Shown: one piece after another, positions 2 to 62,505 of the stretch
Layout of the letters: each line of letters starts with the position of its first letter
Position numbering within the stretch: position 1 is the first letter of the stretch
DNA from: Methanosarcina sp. MTP4
GTDB taxonomy: Archaea; Halobacteriota; Methanosarcinia; Methanosarcinales; Methanosarcinaceae
Reading direction: 5' to 3'
Assembly (NCBI RefSeq): GCF_000970045.1
Contig: NZ_CP009505.1
Span: forward strand, 2,356,001-2,420,000
Length of the DNA: 64,000 nucleotides
Made by a program: the position numbers and the translations under genes
The notes under the pieces: model-generated
Seen by the model: only the letters and a program-made list of their open reading frames with translations
Told to the model about the DNA's origin: nothing
Database searches by the model: none

Positions 2-484
2 GAAATAGACAGGCTCAGTGCCGAAGGGAGCGGAAAGGCAGTCCTTTCGGGCAGTTTCACCCTCAATATGCACCTTGAAAACGGAGTACTGGCTGTACTG
101 GAGCTATCCCCCGACTCTGCGGTCTACATTAAAGGGGCTTACAGATTCGAAGAGCAGACAGAAGACCACCATACCGTGTTCCTCTACTATATACAGTCGG
201 CAGACATTGAAATTCCGGGTTCCCGAAAAGCGGTTTTGCTCAACGCCGAAAACATATCCCTTACTGCAAGCGAAGGAAAAGGACAGGCAACATTCTTCGG
301 TAACGGCACCTATACCATTGAAGATGCCGGTGGGATGAAGGAAGAAGAAAAAATATGGGCAAACTCCCCGGCTGAGATGAATATCATGAATTCCAAACCG
401 GGACCCGATAGAATGACTCCCACCGGGCTGAGGGACGGAAGGACCGGAATGCACCGAATCGACCAAGGTTATACCTCCCGGTGA
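2..484 (+). CDS. C-terminal part of a hypothetical (surface?) protein
   Basis: The frame is open from the first complete codon at position 2 and ends with TGA at 482-484, so the 5' end lies outside the window. About 160 residues are visible. They look like beta-rich exoprotein sequence (alternating hydrophobic and polar residues, stretches such as ENISLTASEGKGQATFFGNG), followed by a Met-, Pro- and Asn-rich tail with no domain I recognise. An internal ATG at 68 is in the same frame but has no ribosome site, so I read it as internal. The next gene, about 100 bp downstream, also encodes an exported protein. Function unknown. Confidence 0.55.
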   Translation, partial: EIDRLSAEGSGKAVLSGSFTLNMHLENGVLAVLELSPDSAVYIKGAYRFEEQTEDHHTVFLYYIQSADIEIPGSRKAVLLNAENISLTASEGKGQATFFGNGTYTIEDAGGMKEEEKIWANSPAEMNIMNSKPGPDRMTPTGLRDGRTGMHRIDQGYTSR

Positions 485-584
485 ACAGCCAGCAAAAAGC
501 CAGAAAAAGCCAGCAGAGCAAAAAAGGTTAAAAGGATAAGGATAAGCTATAATCCAGACCAGAATTCCGAGTTTCCTGATTACC

Positions 585-1718
585 ATGAATTTGAGGTTTT
601 ACATCATCTGCATTGCCGCCGCACTCATGTTCGCAGCCCCTGCTACAGCAGCAGACAGCCCCGCCACAATCCACGGGGTAGTTTACGGCTGGGACACCTT
701 CGAACCCCTGGACAACGCCGTGGTCGAGGTGAACTCCATACCTTCCCAGTCCATGGTGGCAAAATACGGCGTCTATTCCTTCGAACTGGCTCCCGGAGCT
801 TACACTATCAAAGCCGGCTATTACCAGAACGGCACCCTCAGCTACTCAGCAGAAGAACCCATAACAGTTGAAAGCGAAGGAAACTACGTCCTCGACCTCC
901 TTCTCCTCCCCGTCTATTCCGAAGAACTTATGGACAGCCAATCATCCGGCACAGGCGAATTGTCCGAAATCCCGGTAACCGAAACCGAAAGCCAATCATC
1001 AGGTCTCGAGACTGCAGAACCGGATTCAGCTTCTGAATCAGAAGCGAATTCCGAATCGGAATCGGAAGTGGACACAGAAGAAGACGGAATTTCAGCCCGC
1101 GAAAGTTCAGCTTCGGCTTCTTCATCTCTGAATACAACTCACCTGTTTGCAGCCTTCATGCTCATTCTTCTGCTTGTAGGAGGATACCAGTTCTCCCTGA
1201 AGCAAAAAAGCGGAGAGAAAAAGCCGGCGGCAGAAGAAAAAGCAGGGGAAAGGCAGATCCATTCAAGAGTTTCAGTAACATCCCCGGCGCCTGAACCAGC
1301 GGTAGGGCAGACGGCAAAGCTGGAAACAAAGGCAGCAGCAGAGAAGGCGCCAAAGCCGGATGAAAAAACAGCGGCAGAACCGGCAGTAAAACCAATAACA
1401 GAACCTGAATCCGAAATTCATGAAAACACTGAAGGATCGGCTGAAGAGCCCGGTGAAGAACCTGCCGAAAAATCCGAAGAAAAAGAAGATACCTCTACCC
1501 CGAAAAAACCCCTACCCCTCCCGGCCGACCTTCAGGATATTATGGACATAATCCGGGTCCAGGGAGGCAGGATCACCCAGAAAGAGCTTCGCAGCAGGCT
1601 GAAGTATTCGGAAGGAAAGGTCAGCCTCATGCTTACCGACCTTGAAAGGAGAGGGCTGGTAGAGAAATTTAAAAGAGGGAGAGGGAACGTGGTTATAATT
1701 AAAGACGGGAAACGTTAA
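585..1718 (+). CDS. Membrane-tethered winged-helix regulator with extracellular beta-sandwich domain
   Basis: The 377-residue protein has an N-terminal signal peptide (about 1-22, ending ATAAD). A carboxypeptidase-regulatory-like beta domain follows (about 25-105, starting near IHGVVYGWDTFEPLDNAVVEV). Next come a Ser/Glu-rich stretch, one membrane helix (about 184-204), and a charged Ala/Glu/Lys/Pro linker. The last ~70 residues form a winged helix (IMDIIRVQGGRITQKELR ... KVSLMLTDLERRGLV). By topology the sandwich lies outside and the DNA-binding domain inside, so it could pass an envelope signal directly to DNA. That role is inferred; one-component regulators of this plan are known in methanogens. 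No clear Shine-Dalgarno site precedes ATG 585. It stands alone on its strand, with a degraded transporter fragment behind it. Confidence 0.75.
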   Translation: MNLRFYIICIAAALMFAAPATAADSPATIHGVVYGWDTFEPLDNAVVEVNSIPSQSMVAKYGVYSFELAPGAYTIKAGYYQNGTLSYSAEEPITVESEGNYVLDLLLLPVYSEELMDSQSSGTGELSEIPVTETESQSSGLETAEPDSASESEANSESESEVDTEEDGISARESSASASSSLNTTHLFAAFMLILLLVGGYQFSLKQKSGEKKPAAEEKAGERQIHSRVSVTSPAPEPAVGQTAKLETKAAAEKAPKPDEKTAAEPAVKPITEPESEIHENTEGSAEEPGEEPAEKSEEKEDTSTPKKPLPLPADLQDIMDIIRVQGGRITQKELRSRLKYSEGKVSLMLTDLERRGLVEKFKRGRGNVVIIKDGKR

Positions 1719-1787
1719 GGGCTCTATTTTGCAGGTTTCCCTCCAAACTTTATTTAAATTTGAATTCCTGGGACTGAAGACCTTCTC

Positions 1788-1931
1788 ATGGTCCCTGGCA
1801 ACCTCATCCTCATATACACAGCAGCCCTCTCCCTTGCTTTCGGAAACGGGATCATGTGGCCCTGTGTCATCTCAATCCTCTGGAACACCGGAAGAAACAT
1901 GACTCTTGCAAAAATTCGTGAAAAGCGATGA
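1788..1931 (+). pseudogene. Possible MFS transporter remnant (47 codons)
   Basis: A short frame from ATG 1788 to TGA 1929-1931 reads as a single hydrophobic segment with the core ALSLAFGNGIMWPCVISIL, then a short basic tail. The G-N-G-x-M-W-P arrangement resembles a late transmembrane helix of major facilitator exporters, where family members usually have GNGLMWPS. No flanking sequence continues the homology in any frame I read. I take it as a fragment of a deleted transporter gene. It could instead be a genuine small membrane protein. Confidence 0.35.
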
Positions 1932-2072
1932 AAAAAGTACTGAAAAAATGCTTAAAAATGGGTCGGTAGAAATCCTGTAATATTACTTAAAATGGCCCTG
2001 GGGTTTTGTGACAGGATTTAATGATGATTCCAGTTCCGGGATTTTTCTTTTTTCTTATCGACAACAAGGGCC

Positions 2073-2102
2073 CTCACCGCCCGCAAGGCGGGCGGCCTTT
2101 CC
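2073..2102 (-). repeat. Variable-arm palindrome, copy A
   Basis: On the minus strand it reads GGAAAGGC, then a palindrome with arms CCGCCCGC/GCGGGCGG, then TGAG. It shares its flanks, but not its arms, with the copies at 2452, 8683, 45513, 48931, 49571 and 52953. Confidence 0.6.
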
Positions 2103-2206
2103 GATTTATCTGGAAAAAGGTGTTTTCAAAATAAATTGCCATTACTGGCTTTTACTTTTATTCAACTCACTTCACGTCAATATTCTGACTTAAATTGTAA
2201 TTGCCG

Positions 2207-2280
2207 ACTTCATCTCTAATTCCTTACTTCATCTCTAATTCCTTACTTCATCTCTAATTCCTTACTTCACGTCTAATTTT
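2207..2280. repeat. 19-bp tandem repeat, about 4 copies
   Basis: The unit ACTTCATCTCTAATTCCTT occurs three times perfectly, followed by a fourth diverged, truncated copy (ACTTCACGTCTAATTTT). It is non-coding. Confidence 0.9.
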
Positions 2281-2451
2281 ATATTTACTGATAACTTGAA
2301 TTGATTGTGGATTTCTACTAATGCAGAATAGAAGATGTGAGTGCCTTTAATTTAGAATAGAAAAACTGCAAATGCGACCAGGCAGTTGACAAACAAAAAA
2401 TAACTGCTGTTGCTCTTTTTACTTATTTCTCTATCTTTTTAATTAATTTTT

Positions 2452-2482
2452 GGAAAAGCCGGTCAGCAAGCTGACCGGTGAG
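2452..2482 (+). repeat. Variable-arm palindrome, copy B
   Basis: Left flank GGAAAAGC, perfect palindrome with arms CCGGTCAGC/GCTGACCGG and a 2-nt loop, right flank TGAG. The arms are the same as in the copy at 45513-45543 on the other strand. Confidence 0.7.
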
Positions 2483-3020
2483 TGTGCCGGTACCTTAAAA
2501 GGTGCAGGAAAAACGGTACCTTGCTCTGAGTCCTATCTAACCAGCCGTTCCCGGATATGAGTAGATGCGCCATATTCGGACTATTAAACTTTACCATAGC
2601 CTTAATTTTATTTTTAAGCCAGATTAAAGATTAAATAGTCTAAAAATCTCCAAAAAAACCTTCATTGCTAAATATAATCCTCAAAATTCCTCTTTTCCGC
2701 TAAGTATGCTTTTATTATTAAATACCAATGAGGGGTTGACTGCCTCGAAGTATCCCTCCTGCGCAGTCAGCAAGAAACTCCACCCAAACACTCCATCAGG
2801 GGAGTCACCTACTACCTCGGCAGGTGGCTCATCCTCGTAGGGAAGCAGAAAAAGAAACCATGCTTCTCCAAGGCTATCTCCACAAAATGACGGCAGGAGG
2901 GAACGAGGAGGCAGCCATAGAAAAGAACAAACCCCTAGCATAAACGAAACACCTGAAAGCCAGAATGAGGCACCTTCCACCTCGCAGGTGCCTCTCCAAT
3001 TTACAATTCATCAATTACTC

Positions 3021-3046
3021 AATCAATCAATCAATCAATCAATCAA
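3021..3046. repeat. AATC tetranucleotide repeat
   Basis: Six perfect AATC units plus AA lie about 65 bp upstream of the ABC ATPase start. This is a simple-sequence tract that could vary in length by slippage. Confidence 0.9.
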
Positions 3047-3109
3047 TTCATCGACTCACGAAGAACTTCCATTACGAGAGCAGGTGCGCAACGTTTTGAG
3101 GTTTATATT

Positions 3110-4033
3110 ATGCTCATGGAAATTGCAGACACATTGAAAACAACACTGGATCCCAGAAAAGCCCTGGATTCCCTGAGAGGAGATGCAGATCCGGACAATA
3201 ACTTCGAAGGGCCGGATAATAGTCCAGGCGATGATCCGGGAAACGGTTCGAAAAATGAACCTGACCCGAAACCGCACGGGGAGCGTATTAAAAACTCAGA
3301 CTCAGTCAAACCTTCCCAGGATGGAAAAGCTCCCCTTATCAAACTGACTGATGTCTGGAAAATCTACCAGATGGGCGAAGTGGAATTTGCAGCCCTGAAG
3401 GGGATCGATCTGGAGATCTACGAAGGGGAATTCGTGGTTGTGCTCGGGCCCAGCGGGAGCGGGAAAAGTACACTTATGAACCTGCTTGGTTGCCTGGATG
3501 TCCCTTCCAGGGGCACCGTTTTGCTGAACTCCCGGGACATCTCGGAAATGGAAGAATCGGAACTTGCCCAGATCAGGGGGCAGATGATCGGTTTCATTTT
3601 CCAGAGCTTCAACCTGATCCCCACCCTGAATACCCTGGAAAACGTGACCCTTCCCCTTGAGTTCCAGGAAGAAAACCCTGGAAAGGCGCGGGAAAGGGCT
3701 GAGTACCTGCTCGATGTAGTCGGGCTTTCGGACAAGCATCACAACCTGCCTTCCCAACTTTCGGGGGGACAGCGGCAGAGGGTGGCAATAGCCCGCTCCC
3801 TTGCCGTAAACCCGCCGGTGCTCCTGGCAGACGAGCCAACCGGAAACCTGGACAGCAAGACAGGAGACTATATCCTTGAATTTTTAGATGAACTTCGCCG
3901 GAAAGAAGGCAAGACGATCATCATTGTAACCCATGACATGACCCCAGTCCAGTATGCGACAAGGGTTGTACACATCAAAGACGGCGAAATTGAAAAAATC
4001 GAAGAAGTTGAAGGGAATTATTGTAAGTTGTAA
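3110..4033 (+). CDS. MacB/LolD-type ABC transporter ATP-binding protein
   Basis: The 307-residue protein powers an export-type ABC transporter at the inner face of the membrane. A non-conserved acidic and Pro-rich N-terminal extension of about 70 residues precedes a complete nucleotide-binding domain. Visible motifs are Walker A (GPSGSGKST), Q-loop region ([18 protein letters not shown]), signature ([15 protein letters not shown]), Walker B with catalytic Glu ([13 protein letters not shown]) and the H-loop (IIIVTHD). The [12 protein letters not shown] stretch is typical of the MacB/LolD group. ATG 3110 follows a TGAGGT site at suitable spacing. The order ATPase, secreted subunit (4088), FtsX-type permease (5567) on one strand suggests a single operon. 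The N-terminal extension is unusual for the family. Confidence 0.93.
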
Positions 4034-4087
4034 TAAAAAACGTGAAAAATTTTGAAAGTATACACAATTTGCGATGGAGAAAAACTC

Positions 4088-5443
4088 ATGAAAAAGCTCT
4101 CTTTACTGATGATTTTGCTGGTGCTTTCGGCAATCTTACCCCTGAATGCCGGCACAGCCCTGGCTTCCACCGGATTGATAGATTCGGCTTCAGTCCAGAT
4201 CGACCTGACAAAACAGAACCCTGAAGCTGCCCGCCCGGGAGAACCTTTGGAACTTACCTTCAGCGTGCAAAACGACGGCTACGATGACCTGACGGACATA
4301 GTTGTCGAAGTCGAGCCTGAATATCCCTTCACCGCGATTTCCGGAGAAGCGCTTGAAAAAGAAATCGCCTACCTGGATGCGCGGCAGGATGACGCCGATG
4401 CAGCTGTCCTGAAGTTCAAGCTCATGACCGACGCCGACGCTTCCGAAGGCACTTACGAGCTTGATGTCACTACCACTGCCACGAGTGATGAAAAAACCGT
4501 CACCACCACACAAACCATCCTCCTTGAAGTCAGAGGCAAAGAATACGCCCAGATAGTGACCATCAACAAGGCAAACATCGACCTGGCTACCGAAGAACCC
4601 CTTGAGTTCATTGTCACCAATACCGGAAACTCCCCCCTGAAAAACATGGTCATTTCCTGGGAAGACCCCGAAGGCGTAATCCTCCCCGTCTACTCGGACA
4701 ATACCAAGTACATCAAGTATCTCGAAGCCGATGAATCCGTAACTGTTGCCTATACAGTCATGGCAGACGTAAACGCAGACCCCGGACTCTACACCCTCAA
4801 CGTAAACCTGACCTTTGAAGACTACGACTCCAACATCAACACCATCGAGACCACAGCCGGGCTTTTTGTAGGCGGAGAAACCGATTTTGACGTTTCCTTT
4901 TCGGAAAGTGATGAAGGAGAGATTTCCCTTTCCGTTGCGAATGTGGGAAACAACCAGGCATATTCCGTGAAAGTATCGATTCCTGAGCAGGAAAACTTCA
5001 GGACAAGTGGCAGTTCCTCGACCATTGTGGGAAACCTTGAGAAAGGAGACTACACCATCGCGTCTTTCGATGTCATGAGCACACAGGAATCAGATGAGGG
5101 ATCCGAAGATGCCACTGAGGGCGGGACAGCAAGAGCAGCAGGTTCCGGCAGCAGCCCATCCCTGGAAGTCCAGATTGAATACACGGATTCAAAAGGTGAA
5201 AGGATCACAGTCCTGAAAGATGTCCAGGTCGAGATGACAGCCCCTACCGGAGTTGATGGAAGCACGGGCAGGCCCGGAGCACAAACAAGCAGCGGGACCA
5301 GCTCATACGTTTACTATGCCCTGGTAATTGTAGTTGCAGGTGCGGGAGTCTTCCTCTACCGCAGGCAGAAGCAGGGTAAGAAAGGCTCCGAAGAAAAGGA
5401 AGCCGGGAAAGGAAAATACAGTTTCGGTATCCTGAACAGGTGA
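4088..5443 (+). CDS. Secreted COG1361-type (CARDB-like) membrane-anchored exoprotein
   Basis: The 451-residue protein has a signal peptide (MKKLSLL ... ALA) and at least three repeated beta-sandwich modules of the kind found in archaeal S-layer-related COG1361 proteins. These show Phe-Ser-Val-Gln-Asn and Ile-Val-Thr-Asn-Thr-Gly-Asn type strands. One membrane helix (YVYYALVIVVAGAGVFLY) and a short basic cytoplasmic tail close the protein. I chose ATG 4088 because GGAG lies just upstream and it begins the signal peptide; an in-frame ATG at 4052 adds 12 residues that do not fit. It sits between the ATPase and the permease, where bacterial MacAB systems have the periplasmic adaptor, so it is probably the external subunit of the exporter. 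That role is inferred. Confidence 0.82.
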   Translation: MKKLSLLMILLVLSAILPLNAGTALASTGLIDSASVQIDLTKQNPEAARPGEPLELTFSVQNDGYDDLTDIVVEVEPEYPFTAISGEALEKEIAYLDARQDDADAAVLKFKLMTDADASEGTYELDVTTTATSDEKTVTTTQTILLEVRGKEYAQIVTINKANIDLATEEPLEFIVTNTGNSPLKNMVISWEDPEGVILPVYSDNTKYIKYLEADESVTVAYTVMADVNADPGLYTLNVNLTFEDYDSNINTIETTAGLFVGGETDFDVSFSESDEGEISLSVANVGNNQAYSVKVSIPEQENFRTSGSSSTIVGNLEKGDYTIASFDVMSTQESDEGSEDATEGGTARAAGSGSSPSLEVQIEYTDSKGERITVLKDVQVEMTAPTGVDGSTGRPGAQTSSGTSSYVYYALVIVVAGAGVFLYRRQKQGKKGSEEKEAGKGKYSFGILNR

Positions 5444-29963: not shown

Positions 29964-30660
29964 AAAATAAAAGAAAAGGTAAATTTATTTGATATTTTTA
30001 TTTTTTCCTTTTTTATTTTAAGACTTGAGCTTATACCATTTTCCACAGAATTTCTTATTTTCCAATAATATTGGCTAATAAAAATTATTTGCCGAAAAAA
30101 TTTGTTTAAAACACATTTTAAGCAATGATAAGCATAAATAAAGGTATAATGGCAATTATATGTAGTATTAATCGTTTAATAGGTAAAATAAGGGCAAATC
30201 GGGATTTCAAACATAGCAAAAAATTAGATTTTTGTGCATTATAAACTAAAAAATCATATTAAATGTTAATTTATAATTCATATATAACATAAATTAAGTA
30301 TTTATGATTAATACTTCTAATAGGCATTTTGAGGAGTACTAATTTAAAATCATTATATGTAATTTTTTGGCTAAATAAGTATTTTTAAGCTTTTTTTACC
30401 GTTTTAAAGCATTTTAGTAAATTTTGGCATAAGCTCACTTATGTTTAAAGATTTTAATGCTTAGTTTAACGTTTCTTTTAAGGAGTTTTAAGGGATTGAC
30501 TTTAAAATTATCCGGGAATTTTCTTCAAAATTTAGTTTTAGGGCTTCTTATAGTATCATTTCTTCGAAGAATAAAAAATGGGAAGCAGGATTAGCTATCC
30601 TAATCCGGATAAAAGCCAATTCGATTGCAACCATACCTCCCAATGCCATAAAGTCCCTTA
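29964..30660. other. AT-rich spacer between the fasciclin genes
   Basis: About 700 bp, strongly AT-rich, without an open frame I would defend and without obvious tandem repeats. Immediately beyond it begins the second copy of the deaminase-tail/promoter segment. Confidence 0.6.
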
Positions 30661-30666
30661 AAGCAC

Positions 30667-30880
30667 TGAAAATTAATGATAAGAGAGTTTCTGACCTATT
30701 TTCAGGAATAAAGGTCTGAAAAGCCCCTAATTCGCCAAATCACAGATAAGGTTATATAAAAAATAGAATATATAGTGTATGAAAAGTATATCACATAGTA
30801 TATGGATTCATACAGAATATTGATTCATATGTATGTGTTAAGAGTACTTAGGTAATTCAAACAGGGGGGAGATTTATTAA
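30667..30880. repeat. Duplicated segment, second copy
   Basis: Matches 28989-29190 at most positions, including a vestige of the deaminase gene end (GTTTCTGACCTATTTTCAGG), the TATA-like stretch TTATATAAAAAAT and the GGGGGGAG ribosome site. It carries the promoter of the second fasciclin gene. Confidence 0.8.
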
Positions 30881-31526
30881 GAAAATAGGACTTTTTGCTG
30901 TCCTTCTAATTGCAGCTATGCTGTTCGTTTCCGGTTGTGCGGAAGAAACCCCGGAAGAGGTAGCACAGGAAACAGCTGAAGAAGCACAGGAAACGGCTGA
31001 GGAAGCAGAAGAAGAAGCACAGGAGACAGCTGAGGAAGCAGAAGGAGAAATAGAGGAAGCACAGGAAGCAACGCAAGAAGCAATTGAGGCTGGACAAGAA
31101 GCACAGGAAGCAGAAGAGAGAATGAATATAGTGCAAACTGCCGTGGAATCGGGTCAATTTGACACCCTGATTACAGCAATTCAGACTGCTGAGCTCGAAG
31201 AAACCCTGAGCGGAGAAGGACCATTCACAGTCTTTGCCCCTACAGATGAGGCTTTTGACGCCCTTCCACCAGGCACGCTTGATGGACTCCTCGATGACAA
31301 GGACGCCCTGACAGATGTTCTTCTCTACCATGTGGCTGATGGAGAACTCATGGCAGCTGACGTTGTTGAAATGACGTCCATTGAAACCCTGCAGGGTGAG
31401 GACCTCACGGTAACCGTAATGGATGATACGGTTACGGTAAATGATGCGACCATCATCACCACAGATATTGAAACAAGCAACGGTGTCATCCACGTAATCG
31501 ATGCAGTTCTGATCCCGCCGGAGTGA
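30876..31526 (+). CDS. Fasciclin (FAS1) domain lipoprotein, start codon ATT
   Basis: The 216-residue paralog of the lipoprotein at 29187 has signal [20 protein letters not shown], a helical Ala/Glu/Gln-rich stalk built on AQETAEEA-type repeats, and one FAS1 domain ([20 protein letters not shown] ... [14 protein letters not shown]). Between the in-frame stop at 30849-30851 and ATG 30918 there is no ATG, GTG or TTG. The codon at the signal-peptide Met position is ATT (30876), at the same four-base distance from GGGGGGAG as in the first copy. The FAS1 domains are close, but the stalks differ, which suggests the stalk evolves by repeat turnover. Its promoter region is a copy of the first gene's. 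Confidence 0.85.
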
Positions 31527-53209: not shown

Positions 53210-54514
53210 ATGGTGACAATATACCTTAACCTTAATAACTTTTCTGAGCTTCCTACTCTTTTGGACATTTTTGGCAATTATGACAACGATTATGAATATA
53301 CTGCAGAAGGAATTTTTCGTAAAAAGACTTCTCCATCATGTCCTAAATGCAACATTCCTATGGTTCATAATGGTTACAACACATACACCAAAAAAGGGCT
53401 TGGAGACGTCAAAATCGGCAAATATAAGTGTTCAAATTGTAACTGCACACTTGAAGAAAATCGTAGTTTCTGGGAAGAGATTAAGTCTGTTCTTTTTGAT
53501 TCATTTAACGATTTTTTTCAACTACTCAGATATCATAATGTCTCACATAAAGGAATTTCTTCCATTATGGATTTCATATATCCAAGATCAAAAAGCACTA
53601 TTCTCAGAGAATTCAACAAAAATATGGATCAAGAGAAGGTTCCAAATGTAGAATATGTATACATGGTACACTATGACGAACAGCATCCAAAGGAAGGACG
53701 TTGTCAAAAATATCGTTTAACCTTACTTGATGCAAAAACTCAAAGACCATTAGCTGATGAGCTTTTTGATGATAAAAATTCAGAAACAATCAAAAATTTC
53801 CTTAAAAAGCATCTGGATACTTCTAAACCTGTGTTCATAGTTACGGATTTTGACAATACTTATCCTGGAGTTTTAAAGGAAGTTTTTGGAGATAAGTTAG
53901 TACATCAGTATTGTTTGATGCACTTAAACAAGCTTATAGTTCATGATTTTCCACGGAAAACGTCTATTGAGCAGGAATTATTGAAATATAAAATGTTGAA
54001 CATATTTTATAATCGAGAAAAGGAGATCGATTTTCTGGAAAAACTTCTACCTGAGGAACTTAATTTAAGCGGTGACGAAAAACAGTACGTAGAATGGATT
54101 AAAACGGCAAAAAAGCAATTTAATAAGTATAGACATGGATTAAAACTTGAAAGGCGAAGAAAAAAAGAAAATCTCACACATCATTGCCTTGAAAAGGCAA
54201 GAACAAATTTTGAAGATTTGATGAGAAATATAAGAACATACGATGAAGGTATCCAAAAACGACTGTGGATGATCAATAGTCATTGGTTAAATCTTACTGT
54301 GTTTCATTATCTTCCTGGATCTCCAGCAACGAACAATCCAATAGAAAGCTATTTTTCAAAAAGTCTTAAAACAGATAGCAAAAAGCAGTTTAGAACTGAT
54401 ACTGGAATTGAAAACCAGATTAAACTCGCTAAGATGAAAAGAGCGGGAATGATAACAAAACCAGACAAATCACTTTTGGAGTTATTTAGAACATTTACAC
54501 CTTTCAAGGTATAG
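53210..54514 (+). CDS. DDE-type IS transposase
   Basis: The 434-residue transposase has an N-terminal zinc-ribbon (CPKCNIPMVHNGYNTY ... KYKCSNCNCTL), as in ISL3-like enzymes. A catalytic core follows, with Asp in MVHYDEQHPKEGR, Asp in VFIVTDFDNTYPG, a downstream QYCLMHLNKL, and a late Glu in NNPIESYFSKSLK. These three acidic residues probably form the DDE triad. C-terminal basic residues follow. AT-rich composition compared with flanking host genes fits a mobile origin. The ATG at 53210 lies inside the shadow of the inverted repeat, which could limit its own expression. The reading frame is complete. Confidence 0.9.
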   Translation: MVTIYLNLNNFSELPTLLDIFGNYDNDYEYTAEGIFRKKTSPSCPKCNIPMVHNGYNTYTKKGLGDVKIGKYKCSNCNCTLEENRSFWEEIKSVLFDSFNDFFQLLRYHNVSHKGISSIMDFIYPRSKSTILREFNKNMDQEKVPNVEYVYMVHYDEQHPKEGRCQKYRLTLLDAKTQRPLADELFDDKNSETIKNFLKKHLDTSKPVFIVTDFDNTYPGVLKEVFGDKLVHQYCLMHLNKLIVHDFPRKTSIEQELLKYKMLNIFYNREKEIDFLEKLLPEELNLSGDEKQYVEWIKTAKKQFNKYRHGLKLERRRKKENLTHHCLEKARTNFEDLMRNIRTYDEGIQKRLWMINSHWLNLTVFHYLPGSPATNNPIESYFSKSLKTDSKKQFRTDTGIENQIKLAKMKRAGMITKPDKSLLELFRTFTPFKV

Positions 54515-55975: not shown

Positions 55976-57361
55976 ATACACGAACGAAGCAAATTCCTGG
56001 GCACGGAAAAAATAAGCAGCCTCCTCTTCAAGCTCTCGGCTCCCTCAATCCTCGGGATGCTCGTCTACGCCCTGTATAATATAGTGGACACGGTCTTCGT
56101 CGGACAGGCCCTTGGCGAAGAAAGCGTCCAGGGCATCGGCGGGCTTGCGATTGCTTTTCCTATCCAGATGCTGGCTCTGGGAATCGGAATCGGGCTAGGG
56201 GTAGGAGGTGCGTCCGTAATTTCCAGGGCGCTCGGGGCAAAAGAGCTCAATAAAGCCGAAAAAACTCTCGGGACCGCCTTTTCCCTTGCCATTTTCCTGG
56301 GGCTTGCCTACACGGCAGTCGGGCTGTACTTCCTTGACCCTCTGCTGGAACTCTTCGGGGCAACCGAGGGGATCATGCCCTATGCCAGGGACTACCTTGA
56401 AATAACCCTGGCAGGCTCGGTCGTTTTTACTCTTGGAATTGCTGCCGAAGACCTGGTGAGGGCTGAGGGCAATGCCCGCTACGCCATGTTTGGAATGCTC
56501 CTCGGCGCCGGCCTGAACATCCTCCTTGACCCGGTCTTCATTTTCGGTTTCGGGATGGGAGTAAAGGGAGCTGCGATTGCAACCGTGATAGCCCAGTTTG
56601 TGTCCATGACTTTTTTGCTGCGTTATTTCCTTGCAGGCAAAGGCTCCGTGCCCTTCAAAATCAGGATGCTTAAAACCGACCCCGGAATAAGCAGGGAAAT
56701 GCTTGCCATCGGGATAAGTCCCCTGATTATCGAAGCCTCCAACAGCGTCATGATGATTTTCGTAAACAACGCCCTTGGGACTTACGGAGGGGACGTCTCG
56801 ATCGCCGCTTTCGGGATCATCCACCGCCTGATCATGTTCATCTTCCTCCCCATGCTCGGAATATCTTTTGGCTTGCAGCCGATCATAGGCTACAATTACG
56901 GGGCAAAACAGTTTTCGCGGGTGGTCGAGTCCGTGAAGGTCGCCCTGAAACTGAGCACCCTCCTTTCCCTGGCAGGTTTCCTGCTTTTCTTCCTTTTCCC
57001 TGAGCAGATCCTCTCCATCTTCAGCCCTGATGCCGAACTGGCGGCTGTCGGGACCAATGCCATGAGGATCGTCGTGCTGGTCCTGCCCTTCATAAGCTTC
57101 CAGGTCATCGGGACCACCGTTTTCCAGGCGCTCGGGATGCCAAAGCCCGCTTTCATCCTTTCACTGGCAAGGCAGTTGCTTTTTCTGCTCCCGCTTGTGC
57201 TGGTGCTGCCGAAGTTTTACGGGTTGAACGGGGTCTGGGCAGCGTTTCCGATTTCGGATTTTATGGCGTTCGGGCTGGCGGTTGGGTTGTTGTGGTGGGA
57301 GTACCGGAGGTTTGGGAGTGAAGAAAAAGAAGAAGGGGTTGAGGTTTGGAGTGAGGGATAA
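55976..57361 (+). CDS. MATE-family multidrug/cation exporter, start codon ATA
   Basis: The 461-residue protein has twelve predicted membrane helices in the MATE arrangement: two halves each beginning with the conserved motif (FKLSAPSILGMLVYALYNIVDTVFVG; then LAIGISPLIIEASNSVMMIF). It exports drugs or metabolites using a Na+ or H+ gradient. Family proteins begin with ERSKFLGTEKISSLLF; this sequence is encoded upstream of the first ATG (56057). The in-frame stop TAA lies at 55958-55960. Only ATA (55976), ATT and CTG codons are available between them. ATA 55976 has GGAG nine bases upstream. ATG 56057 alone would delete the first half of helix 1. It diverges from the PfkB gene. Confidence 0.85.
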   Translation: MHERSKFLGTEKISSLLFKLSAPSILGMLVYALYNIVDTVFVGQALGEESVQGIGGLAIAFPIQMLALGIGIGLGVGGASVISRALGAKELNKAEKTLGTAFSLAIFLGLAYTAVGLYFLDPLLELFGATEGIMPYARDYLEITLAGSVVFTLGIAAEDLVRAEGNARYAMFGMLLGAGLNILLDPVFIFGFGMGVKGAAIATVIAQFVSMTFLLRYFLAGKGSVPFKIRMLKTDPGISREMLAIGISPLIIEASNSVMMIFVNNALGTYGGDVSIAAFGIIHRLIMFIFLPMLGISFGLQPIIGYNYGAKQFSRVVESVKVALKLSTLLSLAGFLLFFLFPEQILSIFSPDAELAAVGTNAMRIVVLVLPFISFQVIGTTVFQALGMPKPAFILSLARQLLFLLPLVLVLPKFYGLNGVWAAFPISDFMAFGLAVGLLWWEYRRFGSEEKEEGVEVWSEG

Positions 57362-57836
57362 TGACTTCTTTTCGTCATACACTTTGAGTAGAGTATTATT
57401 GAACCTTAACTCCGTCATTTTTAGGGAATAAGTATATCTTAATCATAAATTTCCAGAATCAGCCATCTCTAATATATATAGCCCTACTTTTTTTCACTTT
57501 CACTACTTAGGGTCATATAATCATTCAGGATGATAATTGTAAGATATCTCTTGGCTTGGAATACGATGTCCATATTCAATACTTATTCCCTAATTTGCCC
57601 GAGTTAAGATTTGAAATATTTTTTTATTAAATAATGTTTTTTATACGACCTCAAGTTTCAGCTAAAGCAATAGTATCTGTTGCACTTTTTGATTAAGAAC
57701 TTCTTTTTTATTGACACTTGTGTCCATATGATTATTTCCATCATCAGGTTTTCTTAGTACATACGATAAAGTTATGAACTATGTTTTCAACATACTAACA
57801 TCTTAACACTCATATAATCAAATTATATTTTAGAAG
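57362..57836. other. AT-rich boundary before the TPR-PIN island
   Basis: About 475 bp, with low GC from here until about 61890. It contains ACTTATTCCCTAA and TTTAGGGAATAAGT at 57419-57433 and 57579-57595, inverted copies that could form a large loop. No gene seen. Promoter for 57837 should be here. Confidence 0.45.
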
Positions 57837-58262
57837 ATGTTTGCAATGGTAAATGAAAATGATTCTTGTAAAAATATTAATGGTGGTACCGGAATAACTG
57901 CAGGCGGAGATGTTAGTGTTAGTAATAAAGACGGCTTGATTGCAATAGGATCAAATATTACGCAGAGTCAAACAATACCATCACTAGATTTTGAAAAGCT
58001 AGGGGATGATTTACTTGCCTTCAAGGAAGCAATTTCAAGATCAGATATTTCGACTGAGGATAAACAAATTATCGAAGGCGACATAAGTGCAGCGATTAAA
58101 GAGGCTAAAAGGGAAGAACCCATGTTATCTAAGATTGTTGATAGATTTGAATCTGCTATTGAAGTTATCGAGGAAACTAAAAGAAAAATTGAAGATACAG
58201 GAATTCTCAATCTTGCAGCTAAAATAGCTACTACATTAGGAATTAACCTAATTTTATCATAA
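57837..58262 (+). CDS. Small partner protein with GITAGGDV motif
   Basis: The 141-residue protein has an N-terminal stretch NINGGTGITAGGDVSVSN, then a beta-like IAIGSNITQSQ. A helical part follows (DFEKLGDDLLAFKEAI ... KAAIKEAKREE-type, 45-120), and the end is hydrophobic (NLAAKIATTLGINLILS). The N-terminal motif recurs in the next protein (GGNGITAGRDVIVNAH). Such short GxGITAGxDV stretches are seen beside signalling or conflict NTPases and may serve oligomerisation. An alternative start is ATG 57846. The next gene starts 17 bp after its stop (at ATG 58280), so the two form an operon. I do not recognise the family beyond the motif. Confidence 0.65.
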   Translation: MFAMVNENDSCKNINGGTGITAGGDVSVSNKDGLIAIGSNITQSQTIPSLDFEKLGDDLLAFKEAISRSDISTEDKQIIEGDISAAIKEAKREEPMLSKIVDRFESAIEVIEETKRKIEDTGILNLAAKIATTLGINLILS

Positions 58263-58279
58263 TTTTGGAAGGGTGTTTC

Positions 58280-61009
58280 ATGGGGGAAGAGGTCCACAAG
58301 GAAGATATCCACAAAAATGTAGACATAAAAGGTGGAAATGGGATTACAGCTGGAAGGGACGTTATTGTTAATGCTCATTCGAGTGATGTTATTGTTGGAA
58401 ATATAACACAATATGTTCATACAGAAGCTGTAGAAGACAGGATTAATGAGTTAATAGAATTTGCAAAATTTTGTACTAAAAAAAAGGAATATAAAAAAGC
58501 TCTAGAATTCTACGATAAAGCAAAATCTAAATTAGAATATAGTCCATCAGATCGTTTATTTGTTAAGGTAATTGTTGGAGAGGCGGTCTGCCATCATAAA
58601 AAGGGAAATTTTGGCAAAGCAAAAAAATTAATCCTTGAAGCTGAACTTGTAGACCCCGAAAATCCTATTGTGTTAGCGGATCTTGCATCTCTTCTGAGAA
58701 TTGAAACCCCAGAAAGAGCTGAAACTTACGCAAAAAAAGCACTTGAATTAGACCAGAACAACGTTTTGGCAATGTGTACTTTGGGTTTACTAGAATCTGA
58801 AAGAGGGAATACGAAAGAAGGTCTTAGGAAATTAAGAGAGGCTTCTGTACTTAATCCTAATGATGCTTATCCAATTTACTGCATGAGTCATGTTCATTCT
58901 TTTGAAGGTGATTATGACAATGCAATCAAATTAGGTTTGGAAGCTATAGGCATCGAACCTGAAGATTCTTCATATCATAACGCTTTAGGCATACTTTATT
59001 TGAAAGCTTCTTCTCCTTATGGGGAGGTTTTTGTCAGTTATGAATCAGAAGAATATGTAAATCAGGATTATATCGAAGAAGCAATAAAAGTTTTGGAAAA
59101 AGCAAGAGATTTAAATGATTCACAGGGTAATTACCACTTAAACTCTGAAATATACGTGAATCTAGGATGTGCATATCTGGCTAAAAACGAAATAGATATG
59201 TCAATTGATTTTTTAAATAAGGCTTTAGATTCGGGATTAGATTGTGCTGATGTTTATATTAAGCTTGGTGAAGCTTACGCAAAAAATCAAAATTGTGGTA
59301 AAGTAATAGAATACTATCAACCTCTTATTGAAAACGATGATATTACTGGTGATGAACTCTTTGTCGTGAAAGCTAATCTTGCAGGTGCATATGCCGCTGC
59401 AAACAAGCTAGATGAAGCTGAAGCATTATTCGATGAGTTAATTAAGCAAAAGCCAACAAACCCACATTTGCACATAGACTTAGCAAAAGTTGCTGAAATT
59501 AGGGGGGATTTTGAAAAAGCTATTGATGTTTTGAATAGAATTAGTGATGTCCCTCAAAATCTTTGGGAATACAATTACATTAAAGGTAGGTTGAATCATA
59601 AAATTAATGATTACGAGCAAGCAGCTATTCACTTTAAAGAATCAATAAAGAGTAGTGGTGGGGCACGTGAACCAACAATAGGTTTGATAAATTTGTACAT
59701 TGACTGTGGAATGCATGAACATGCTATAAAATATGCTGAAAAATTGGTTGAAACCGATATTAGGGGTATTGATCTGTATAATCTTGCCACACTTTATTAT
59801 TCAGCAAAGGATTACAAAATGTCTGCTGATTTTTCGAGAAAAGCTTTAGATGCAGGTTATAATGATTTAGAAACTTACAGACTGCTATGTATTTCTCTTT
59901 TAGAAGCACATGATACCTTGTCAGCTAAGCTCGAATTAGAATCTGCTTCAAGCAAGTTTCCTGATGATTTAGAATTGAAACTAATTTATACAGATGCTTT
60001 GATACGATTGAATGAAGATGAAAAAGCTGTTGCAATTCTAAATGATATTATTCAATGTAAGCCTGCATTCACTCCAGCGCATTTATCTTTAGCAAATATT
60101 TATTTAAGAAATGGTTCGTATGAAAAAGCTTTGGAACTTGCTAAAAAAGCATCTATTCTTGAACCAAAAAATGAACATGTATACTTTGTTTGGGGAAATT
60201 GTTTACTTAAATTAGGCAAAGTAGATGAAGCAACAGAAAAAATGATAAAAGTATCAGAGTTAAATCCAGATTTTGAGTATACAAGATTCGTAAAAGCCGA
60301 AGAATTCATCACTTGCATGGAACATCAGGCTGTTATTTCGCAGCGCATAATAGAGAACTACGAAAATGGAAGTATGACAATATCAAAAGTAGCTGAGATT
60401 CTAAATAAAGAAACAATTGATTTGTTGAACCACATAAATAATTACAAAGTATCGGAATATTTAGGTTTATCCGATGAAAAAATAGATCAGTTAAATATAC
60501 CATCCGTGGTGAAGAAAAATGTACTTTTGGATGACACAATATTAGGTATACTGATCACAATTGATAAACAAGATTTATTAAAACTGGCATTTAATCACGT
60601 ATATATTACAAAGGAACTTGAAAAGGAACTCATTAATAATACTTATGGAGAAGGCCATCCTTGGTGGCAAGCCAAAAAAACCCTCAAGATTTTCCAAGAT
60701 GGATGGATCGAGGGTTTAAGGTCCAGCGAAATATCTATTCTTGCTACGAAGAAGATATTTTCAGAAAAAAAACTAAGTAAAAAAGATATCTCTTTTGTTT
60801 CTCTATCTCTGGATAATGATTGTCTTTGTATGACAGAAGATTTGCTTCTTAGAACCTATTTGGAACGTATGGAGAAACCAACTTGTGGGATAGTTGGATT
60901 GTTGAATTATTTGGTCCATAATAATTTAATAAAAAATGAAGAGGTTGAATCAATACATAAAAGTGTAAAATCTTTATGTGAAATAGATTTCAAAAGAATG
61001 GAGCGATGA
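58280..61009 (+). CDS. TPR protein with C-terminal PIN-like domain
   Basis: The 909-residue protein starts MGEEVHKED with the motif GGNGITAGRDVIVNAH and GNITQYVHTE. About 16 tetratricopeptide repeats of 34 residues follow (about 50-680; for example NVLAMCTLGLLESERGNTKEGL and HVYFVWGNCLLKLGKVDEATE). The last ~175 residues look like a PIN ribonuclease: VLLDDTILGILI, YITKELEKELI, FVSLSLDNDCLCMTEDLLLRTYL and PTCGIVGLLNYLV give Asp, Glu, Asp/Asp positions for metal binding. Combined TPR and PIN suggests an RNase whose activity is set by protein contacts. The start is uncertain between 58265 and 58280; GGAAGGGTG favours 58280. AT-rich like its partner. Confidence 0.72.
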   Translation: MGEEVHKEDIHKNVDIKGGNGITAGRDVIVNAHSSDVIVGNITQYVHTEAVEDRINELIEFAKFCTKKKEYKKALEFYDKAKSKLEYSPSDRLFVKVIVGEAVCHHKKGNFGKAKKLILEAELVDPENPIVLADLASLLRIETPERAETYAKKALELDQNNVLAMCTLGLLESERGNTKEGLRKLREASVLNPNDAYPIYCMSHVHSFEGDYDNAIKLGLEAIGIEPEDSSYHNALGILYLKASSPYGEVFVSYESEEYVNQDYIEEAIKVLEKARDLNDSQGNYHLNSEIYVNLGCAYLAKNEIDMSIDFLNKALDSGLDCADVYIKLGEAYAKNQNCGKVIEYYQPLIENDDITGDELFVVKANLAGAYAAANKLDEAEALFDELIKQKPTNPHLHIDLAKVAEIRGDFEKAIDVLNRISDVPQNLWEYNYIKGRLNHKINDYEQAAIHFKESIKSSGGAREPTIGLINLYIDCGMHEHAIKYAEKLVETDIRGIDLYNLATLYYSAKDYKMSADFSRKALDAGYNDLETYRLLCISLLEAHDTLSAKLELESASSKFPDDLELKLIYTDALIRLNEDEKAVAILNDIIQCKPAFTPAHLSLANIYLRNGSYEKALELAKKASILEPKNEHVYFVWGNCLLKLGKVDEATEKMIKVSELNPDFEYTRFVKAEEFITCMEHQAVISQRIIENYENGSMTISKVAEILNKETIDLLNHINNYKVSEYLGLSDEKIDQLNIPSVVKKNVLLDDTILGILITIDKQDLLKLAFNHVYITKELEKELINNTYGEGHPWWQAKKTLKIFQDGWIEGLRSSEISILATKKIFSEKKLSKKDISFVSLSLDNDCLCMTEDLLLRTYLERMEKPTCGIVGLLNYLVHNNLIKNEEVESIHKSVKSLCEIDFKRMER

Positions 61010-61896
61010 AGACATCTTGTTTAATGAAACTGGTGGGTGAATTCTCAGGGTTGCCTAAATAAACAAAAACTAAGAATAGAGTTATCAATATTAATATCAT
61101 TCGTCCATCCTCACTTAACTGTATTCCCAAACAACAAAATTATCATATCAAATTCGATTAAATGTGGGGTTTTTATCCGGTTTCGGATTTGAAGGAATGT
61201 TGAATTCGATTTTTTGGTGGGGTTTAGGTTTTTCTGGTTGGTTCTCAAAGTGTCTTATCAATGTCAAAAATCAAAAAAAGAGGGTGAAAATAGACACCTT
61301 TTTCTTCTTATTTTACATTAAACAGATCATATTTTTAATTGATGAATTCCTGAAGTGGACTAAACACACACTCTTCTATTAATTTAGAAGTTTGTTTTGT
61401 ATCTGTTTTTACTGATGATTTTTCAAAATGATAGTCATCTCTATGGTGGGTTTTTAGGATGTCCTGATTCTTTATCAAAGCTACCTAGCCTTGTAGCCTC
61501 TAATAAAATTTCTCCACACCTCCAACTTTTTAATCCTTTTAATTTCAAATCCACCACAACTTTACGATTTCTCGAAAGAATAATTCCGGCACAAATATTT
61601 CCATAAATCCCTCACACTCATTTTCTACACAGAGTTTCCAATAAGTATATATCTCCCCGTTTTAATATAAATACCAGCAAAACTACCCTTGCATCCAAAA
61701 TTGCCATCTGGCAATCTAACACATATCTGAGAAAATACGGTAGCAGAGTAGTTTGAGAAATAGATTCTCTGTTAATACAGCATAAGGGGGAAGCTGCTTA
61801 GCAGGATTTGTAAATGGAATTTCTTTTACTGGACAGTGTAGACGTTCCGGAACAAATTTTGTGAAACCAGCTAATTACGAATAGGGGAGGATGAAT
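61010..61896. other. AT-rich region after the TPR-PIN operon
   Basis: About 890 bp without a convincing gene. A 72-codon frame at 61164 (Phe/Trp-rich, GFLSGFGFEGML) and a 69-codon frame at 61397 lack ribosome sites. Promoter for superoxide dismutase is probably within 61740-61880. The region has the same low GC as the island to its left. Confidence 0.5.
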
Positions 61897-62505
61897 ATGG
61901 CTAAGGAATTGTATAAATTACCGCCTTTGAAGTTTGGTTATGCGGACCTGGAACCTTATATTTCCGAAGAACAGCTGCGGATACACCATGACAAGCACCA
62001 TCAGGGTTATGTGAATAATACGAATTCAATTCTGCAAATGATGGAGAAAGCAAGGAAAGATGGCACGGATTTTGACTATAAAGCAACCGCAAAAGCCCTG
62101 GCTTTCAATATGGGTGGGCACGTCCTTCATAGCTATTTCTGGTGGGAGCTGACGCCTGCGGAAAAGGCGAGTAAGGAACCTGTCGGGGAACTGGCTGAAG
62201 CTATCAAGGAAGACTTCGGGACTTTTGAACGGTTCAAAAAGGAGTTCTCCCAGGTTGCAGCAAGTGTGGAGGGTTCCGGCTGGGCAGCTTTAACTTTCTG
62301 CCGTGATACGAAAAGGCTCGGGTTCATGCAGATAGAAAAGCATAATGTAAACCTGATCCCGGATTTCCCGGTACTTCTGGTTGTAGATGTATGGGAACAT
62401 GCTTACTATCTTGATTACAAGAATGAAAGGGGCAAATTCATAGACGCTTTCTGGAATATCATCGACTGGGAAGAAATCGACAAATACTTCAAGACAATTC
62501 GGTAA
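61897..62505 (+). CDS. sodB: Iron/manganese superoxide dismutase
   Basis: The 202-residue enzyme converts superoxide to hydrogen peroxide and oxygen in the cytosol. It shows the typical start [34 protein letters not shown] with the first metal His. [18 protein letters not shown] carries the second His. [18 protein letters not shown] carries Asp and the third His. Length and motifs are complete. GGGGAGG six bases before ATG 61897 fixes the start; ATG 61891 would be right next to the site. Whether iron or manganese is used cannot be told safely; most methanogen enzymes are iron-type. It lies at the edge of the AT-rich island but has host-like composition. Confidence 0.95.

Follow-up and report, generated by a model that had tools for sequence, protein, structure and literature searches.

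A linked gene pair for an AbiTi-related small protein and a TPR-PIN protein with a common N-terminal tag at an exchange site in Methanosarcina

Described systems and the gene pair

Apart from CRISPR and restriction, the immunity of archaea has been little explored (PMC12988326). The gene pair described here lies in the window (the whole stretch of 64,000 nucleotides that was analysed) and encodes a small helical protein and a large protein with TPRs and a C-terminal PIN domain. The latter combination was held by the original prediction to be an undescribed type of RNase, but TPRs and PIN had already been published together in 2021, in the TPR-GreAB-C-PIN conflict proteins with variable N-termini (Kaur et al. 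2021, PMC8195603). The large protein resembles these in having a variable N-terminal element, TPRs, a helical linker and a C-terminal PIN domain. It differs from them in having neither GreA/B-C nor a match to PF20698, and in having a conserved tagged neighbour encoded by a partner gene, whereas the known members are mostly standalone genes.

The lactococcal AbiT system (AbiTi/AbiTii) acts by abortive infection and is encoded by two genes; the AbiTi of Coprococcus catus has been found to be toxic in E. coli, its AbiTii not neutralising it (PMC3985639). The window unit likewise consists of two genes, and the module of its small protein shares homology with the AbiTi-like C-terminal part seen in plasmid AbiTii proteins; unlike in AbiT, however, the partner is a TPR-PIN protein and the small protein itself has no match to the AbiTi model. 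No AbiTii was found in the window's genome. PDC-M14B, a multi-gene phage defence candidate of PADLOC, is similar in that the C-terminal half of its model covers both tag and helices, but the archaeal small protein corresponds to this module alone, without the first 150 positions of the model. In STAND NTPase-TPR systems with effector-associated partners (PMC8195603, PMC7159879) the likeness concerns the usual neighbour of the small gene, a tagged NB-ARC/nSTAND-like ATPase with TPRs, whereas the partner in the window has no NTPase domain. The principle of the EADs (same references), one element common to two neighbouring proteins, also applies to the pair, although the tag is short and could be matched to no described EAD. 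Finally, DS-5 of DefensePredictor is a two-protein PIN defence system in which both proteins are needed and which is not a toxin-antitoxin (PMC13092281); as judged by its description it shares with the pair a PIN domain and a second protein, but there the second protein is DUF5830/AcrIF4-like. The features of the locus are as follows:

56057..57361, + strand: MATE transporter, left flank of the exchange site (comparison with relatives)
57846..58262, + strand: small gene (start ATG 57846), 138 aa; tag and AbiTi/PDC-M14B-like four-helix domain
57882..57965, + strand: tag of the small protein (GGTGITAGGDVSVSNKDGLIAIGSNITQ), from alignment; low confidence in the AF2 model
57990..58238, + strand: residues 49-131 of the small protein, a four-helix domain as predicted by AF2
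58280..61009, + strand: large gene (start ATG 58280), 909 aa; tag, TPRs, helical linker and PIN
58331..58411, + strand: tag of the large protein (GGNGITAGRDVIVNAHSSDVIVGNITQ), from N-terminal alignment
58440..60290, + strand: TPR superhelix, about residues 55-670 (Pfam TPR matches)
60341..60520, + strand: helical linker (QRIIENYENGSMTISKVAEIL...), like the pre-PIN segment of TPR-GreAB-C-PIN proteins (weak hhalign)
60521..60970, + strand: PIN domain with acidic D751, E779/E781, D836 and E853/D854 (profiles, hhalign)
61891..62505, + strand: Fe/Mn superoxide dismutase (SOD), right flank of the exchange site (comparison with relatives)

The gap between the two genes is 17 bp and their GC content about 31-35%, most of the window being higher, in agreement with the adjacent AT-rich genes of the original prediction. 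The small ORF spans 57837-58262 and has a further ATG upstream, at 57837; the one at 57846 appears to be the better start, as judged by the fit to homologues. Within the large ORF (58265-61009) the gene likely starts at ATG 58280, which is preceded by GGAAGGGTG. An Rfam search around the gene pair gave no match and a tRNA search of the 64-kb window found none; a plasmid tblastn search with the window proteins, or with one archaeal small protein, as query was also without match.

The shared tag and the small protein

A tag common to both N-termini had been predicted and is clearly present. Local alignment of the N-termini of the small and the large protein gave a score of 71. When the N-terminus of the partner was shuffled 5000 times the score never exceeded 48, and the remainder of the partner reached 28. 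The DNA pattern for GITAG..DV occurs at exactly two sites in the 4.2 Mb genome, both in this pair, and at none when read backwards. At the DNA level the full motif was matched 26 times genome-wide; most of these matches were set aside as chance, being located inside unrelated genes or outside called ORFs; a motif search in viral contigs found none.

The small protein was found in 8 of the 112 genomes of the family, and also in ANME/Methanophagales archaea. At all 14 loci read in detail the small gene adjoins a tag-bearing gene, so that the predicted linkage of tagged genes was upheld by the neighbourhood survey. The partner, however, is usually another one: at 12 of the 14 loci the partners include a tagged STAND/NB-ARC-like ATPase with TPRs (four of these loci have frames broken or cut by contig ends), and only at the remaining two, the window and L017, is it a TPR-PIN protein. 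No nuclease domain was seen in the STAND-TPR partners. The tag is thus no signature of this RNase. It is a module widely carried by archaeal STAND-TPR proteins and by the small proteins encoded next to them, and a feature of linked partners which is not specific to the TPR-PIN RNase. Tags within a pair were more alike than those of permuted pairings (p 1.4e-4, 13 pairs; p 0.0026 when the most divergent pair, L045, was left out; these p values ignore shared ancestry). Assembly of the two proteins through the tag would be consistent with both the linkage and the likeness of paired tags. In L070 the tag-helix module and an AAA/STAND ATPase form a single fused protein, a Rosetta-type link. Two tagged STAND proteins (L055 and L061) were without a small gene within the stretch that was read; L055 is on the same contig as one of the pairs (L072), and L061 is in the same genome as that pair. 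At the L068 locus (256-4376) three tagged genes follow each other in a row, encoding a small AbiTi-like protein, a tag-TPR protein of 306 aa and a tag-STAND-TPR protein.

The AF2 model of the small protein has four helices, mostly with pLDDT about 90, behind the tag, which is disordered and of low confidence. Together with the hydrophobic C-terminus this agrees well with the helical, hydrophobically ending protein that had been predicted. Pfam gave no match to the small protein at E 1 or better, antitoxins included, and TRADD-N and other EADs, which the literature offered as candidates for the identity of the tag, were rejected on this basis. Foldseek searches of the model against PDB were without significant match; the best-overlapping match among those listed was the four-helix PedB (2ip6, TM 0.78 by target), which at E 1.3 was taken as a bundle resemblance only.

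The small protein is no orphan: its family proved to be AbiTi/PDC-M14B-like. The C-terminal half of the PADLOC model PDC-M14B matched the small proteins of L018 (3.6e-10), L073 (2e-9), L072 (6.9e-8) and the window (8e-4). In a further relative, L046, there were matches to PDC-M14B as well as to AbiTi (1.4e-5), and through it related proteins were found on plasmids of Vibrio, Aeromonas and Pseudomonas. Those read in detail consist of AbiTii (3.6e-49 in L117) followed by a tag-helix segment. The C-terminal segment of the L117 protein matched AbiTi with 1.1e-7 and PDC-M14B with 1.9e-7, and in another plasmid AbiTii (L119) a similar tag, GDVSGSQIQIGSNSSNQTQTQT, can be seen. When the small proteins of Methanosarcinales/ANME were compared with the AbiTii C-terminal segments by hhalign, an E of 3.7e-7 and a score of 45 were obtained, whereas the best of 100 column shuffles scored 17.4 and the reversed comparison 15.4. 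It should be underlined that this sequence homology to the AbiTi module holds at the level of the family: the AbiTi model gave no direct match to the window's own small protein, which is linked through its relatives. In an archaeal AbiTii match (L123) no tag-helix C-terminus was recognised by eye. An uncharacterised two-gene unit encoding proteins of about 300 and 460 aa was also noted (L025 4099-6383, L047 2292-4639 and L048 3502-5770); the C-terminus of its second protein matches the tag-helix family.

The kinship with AbiTi bears on what the small protein might do. One reading, which we consider rather improbable, is that the small protein is a killer effector (membrane or other), with the large protein serving mainly as sensor and its PIN domain being secondary. 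The toxicity of C. catus AbiTi alone in E. coli (PMC3985639) points in this direction, as do the hydrophobic C-terminal helix and the STAND-TPR pairs, in which the lack of a visible nuclease leaves the small protein as a possible effector. However, the module is also found C-terminally on AbiTii, ATPase and HTH-like proteins, which would fit an adaptor better, and the acidic positions of the PIN domain are retained in the large protein.

A type II toxin-antitoxin, with a PIN toxin carried on a TPR chain and the small upstream protein as a VapBC-like antitoxin, is in our view unlikely. The small gene coming first, the tight spacing and the PIN domain do recall VapBC, but because the relatives of the small protein mostly pair with STAND-TPR proteins devoid of PIN, the small protein is apparently not a PIN-specific antitoxin, and this was dropped as its main reading. 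Its family is also AbiTi-like, and AbiTi of C. catus is itself toxic and left unneutralised by AbiTii (PMC3985639); moreover, no Pfam antitoxin matches it at E 1 or better.

The large protein

Pfam matches of the large protein to TPR_2 (1.8e-38) and TPR_19 (5.1e-36) define a TPR region of ~620 aa, and about 16 TPRs are plausible as judged from this length (roughly residues 55-670). No NTPase domain was among the Pfam matches listed for the window proteins. The TPR-PIN protein has a patchy distribution, being present in 2 of the 112 genomes of the family (the window's and that of L017). The whole large protein is about 50% identical to its L017 orthologue, and the pair of small and TPR-PIN protein is kept in that one other genome at ~50% identity.

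None of the Pfam PIN models matched the large protein significantly. A profile was built from its C-terminal 236 residues and L017, the sole clear orthologue, and in a search of 393 genomes of the phylum this profile found standalone archaeal proteins of ~155-170 aa (E 8e-11 to 5e-8), assigned by Pfam to PIN, DUF3368 and PF20698. Comparison of the C-terminus with four of these standalone PINs by hhalign gave a probability of 98.8% and an E of 1.1e-16 over 139 columns. The acidic residues D751, E779/E781, D836 and E853/D854 are invariant in both orthologues and acidic in the aligned standalone PINs. As judged by these profiles, the C-terminus of the large protein is a PIN domain, as had been predicted, and it may well cleave RNA. 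The assignment rests on sequence profiles because the AF2 model of linker and PIN, obtained from a two-sequence input, was uninformative (pLDDT 44). A contig scan of genomes with PIN alignment patterns, which lay in the linker, gave no match.

True TPR-GreAB-C-PIN proteins are present in the same archaeal family, namely L093 (PF20698 2.4e-21, GreA_GreB 1.2e-8) and L094. The gene of the latter (G081:C1:2250500-2261000) lies, by eye, between apparent specificity and modification genes of a type I restriction system. PF20698 gave no match to the large protein of the window, and GreA_GreB was found neither when the last 236 residues were searched with a limit of E 1 nor among the whole-protein matches listed. 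By these two features the large protein would fall outside TPR-GreAB-C-PIN, though by analogy it may work like that design. That it is a TPR-GreAB-C-PIN member minus GreA/B-C, with the N-terminal EAD/effector swapped for the tag and with transcripts of invader DNA as target, seems to us quite unlikely: the TPR-linker-PIN order is alike, bona fide members exist in the family and the hhalign comparison of linker and PIN is colinear over 203 columns (score 30.6, maximum 24.6 in 60 shuffles), but PF20698 is not matched, GreA/B-C is not seen at E up to 1, and the 22% probability of this weak match contrasts with the far stronger 98.8% for standalone DUF3368-type PINs.

Proposed conflict system and its locus

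The reading that we prefer, and to which we give an even chance, is that the pair constitutes an accessory NTPase-free two-gene conflict system composed of a TPR sensor/scaffold, a tag-docked AbiTi-like partner and a PIN RNase effector. Such a system would probably be antiviral and of the abortive-infection type, and DS-5, with its need for both proteins, is a precedent for a PIN system of two proteins. The large protein would combine sensor and effector in one chain, with the TPR superhelix binding an invader-related ligand or restraining the chain, and the PIN domain, once released, cutting RNA. The AbiTi-like four-helix protein would act as an adaptor or co-effector docking on the large protein, most simply tag to tag. 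As the ATPase of the relatives' partners is absent here, the switch would have to operate without NTP-driven oligomerisation, and what is most unusual about the mechanism, compared to the relatives, is this lack of an NTPase. More tentatively, it is possible that the pair is an archaeal immune system without NTPase, a TPR-PIN RNase having taken the place of the STAND ATPase beside the AbiTi-like protein, the AbiTi module being a general docking/effector subunit of AbiT, STAND-TPR and PIN systems. One tag-helix module ties together lactococcal AbiTi, archaeal STAND-TPR proteins and TPR-PIN nucleases, which are usually handled separately. If it is a shared docking/effector part, the AbiT-type mode of action becomes testable, and a number of unannotated archaeal operons can be grouped together as candidates for immune systems.

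The pair is located between the MATE and SOD genes. In three congeners and another relative, whose MATE is 89-95% identical, these two genes likewise enclose a variable slot. The cargo differs each time and consists of a pentapeptide/ion-channel gene, of a VOC-like gene, of small genes or of Lamassu/ABC-3C. The last is a three-gene Lamassu/ABC-3C located between MATE and SOD in a congener (L110, G008:C115:47000-56410), with matches to LmuA (8e-95), LmuB (1.3e-154) and LmuC (5.9e-45) and to CTD6 and MC2 of Pfam. The MATE-SOD slot is thus an exchange site that accepts defence genes in this genus. No further defence gene was identified in the window's own slot. The Lamassu in the slot of a congener makes a defence role of the pair more likely, yet it is circumstantial and leaves that role unproven. 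The defence role suggested by the original prediction is plausible; that it is antiviral is what we infer.

An inverted repeat of 15 bp without mismatch (TTAGGGAATAAGTAT), its arms separated by 143 bp, is located just 3' of MATE (57421-57593), and could be the remnant of a small mobile element marking the exchange site. About 3 kb upstream of the pair, within a stretch of 33-35% GC, there is a transposase-like gene (53210-54514; DDE_Tnp_IS240 1.9e-4, below the cut-off of Pfam). The lowest GC content of the window, 29%, is reached at 30001-31000.
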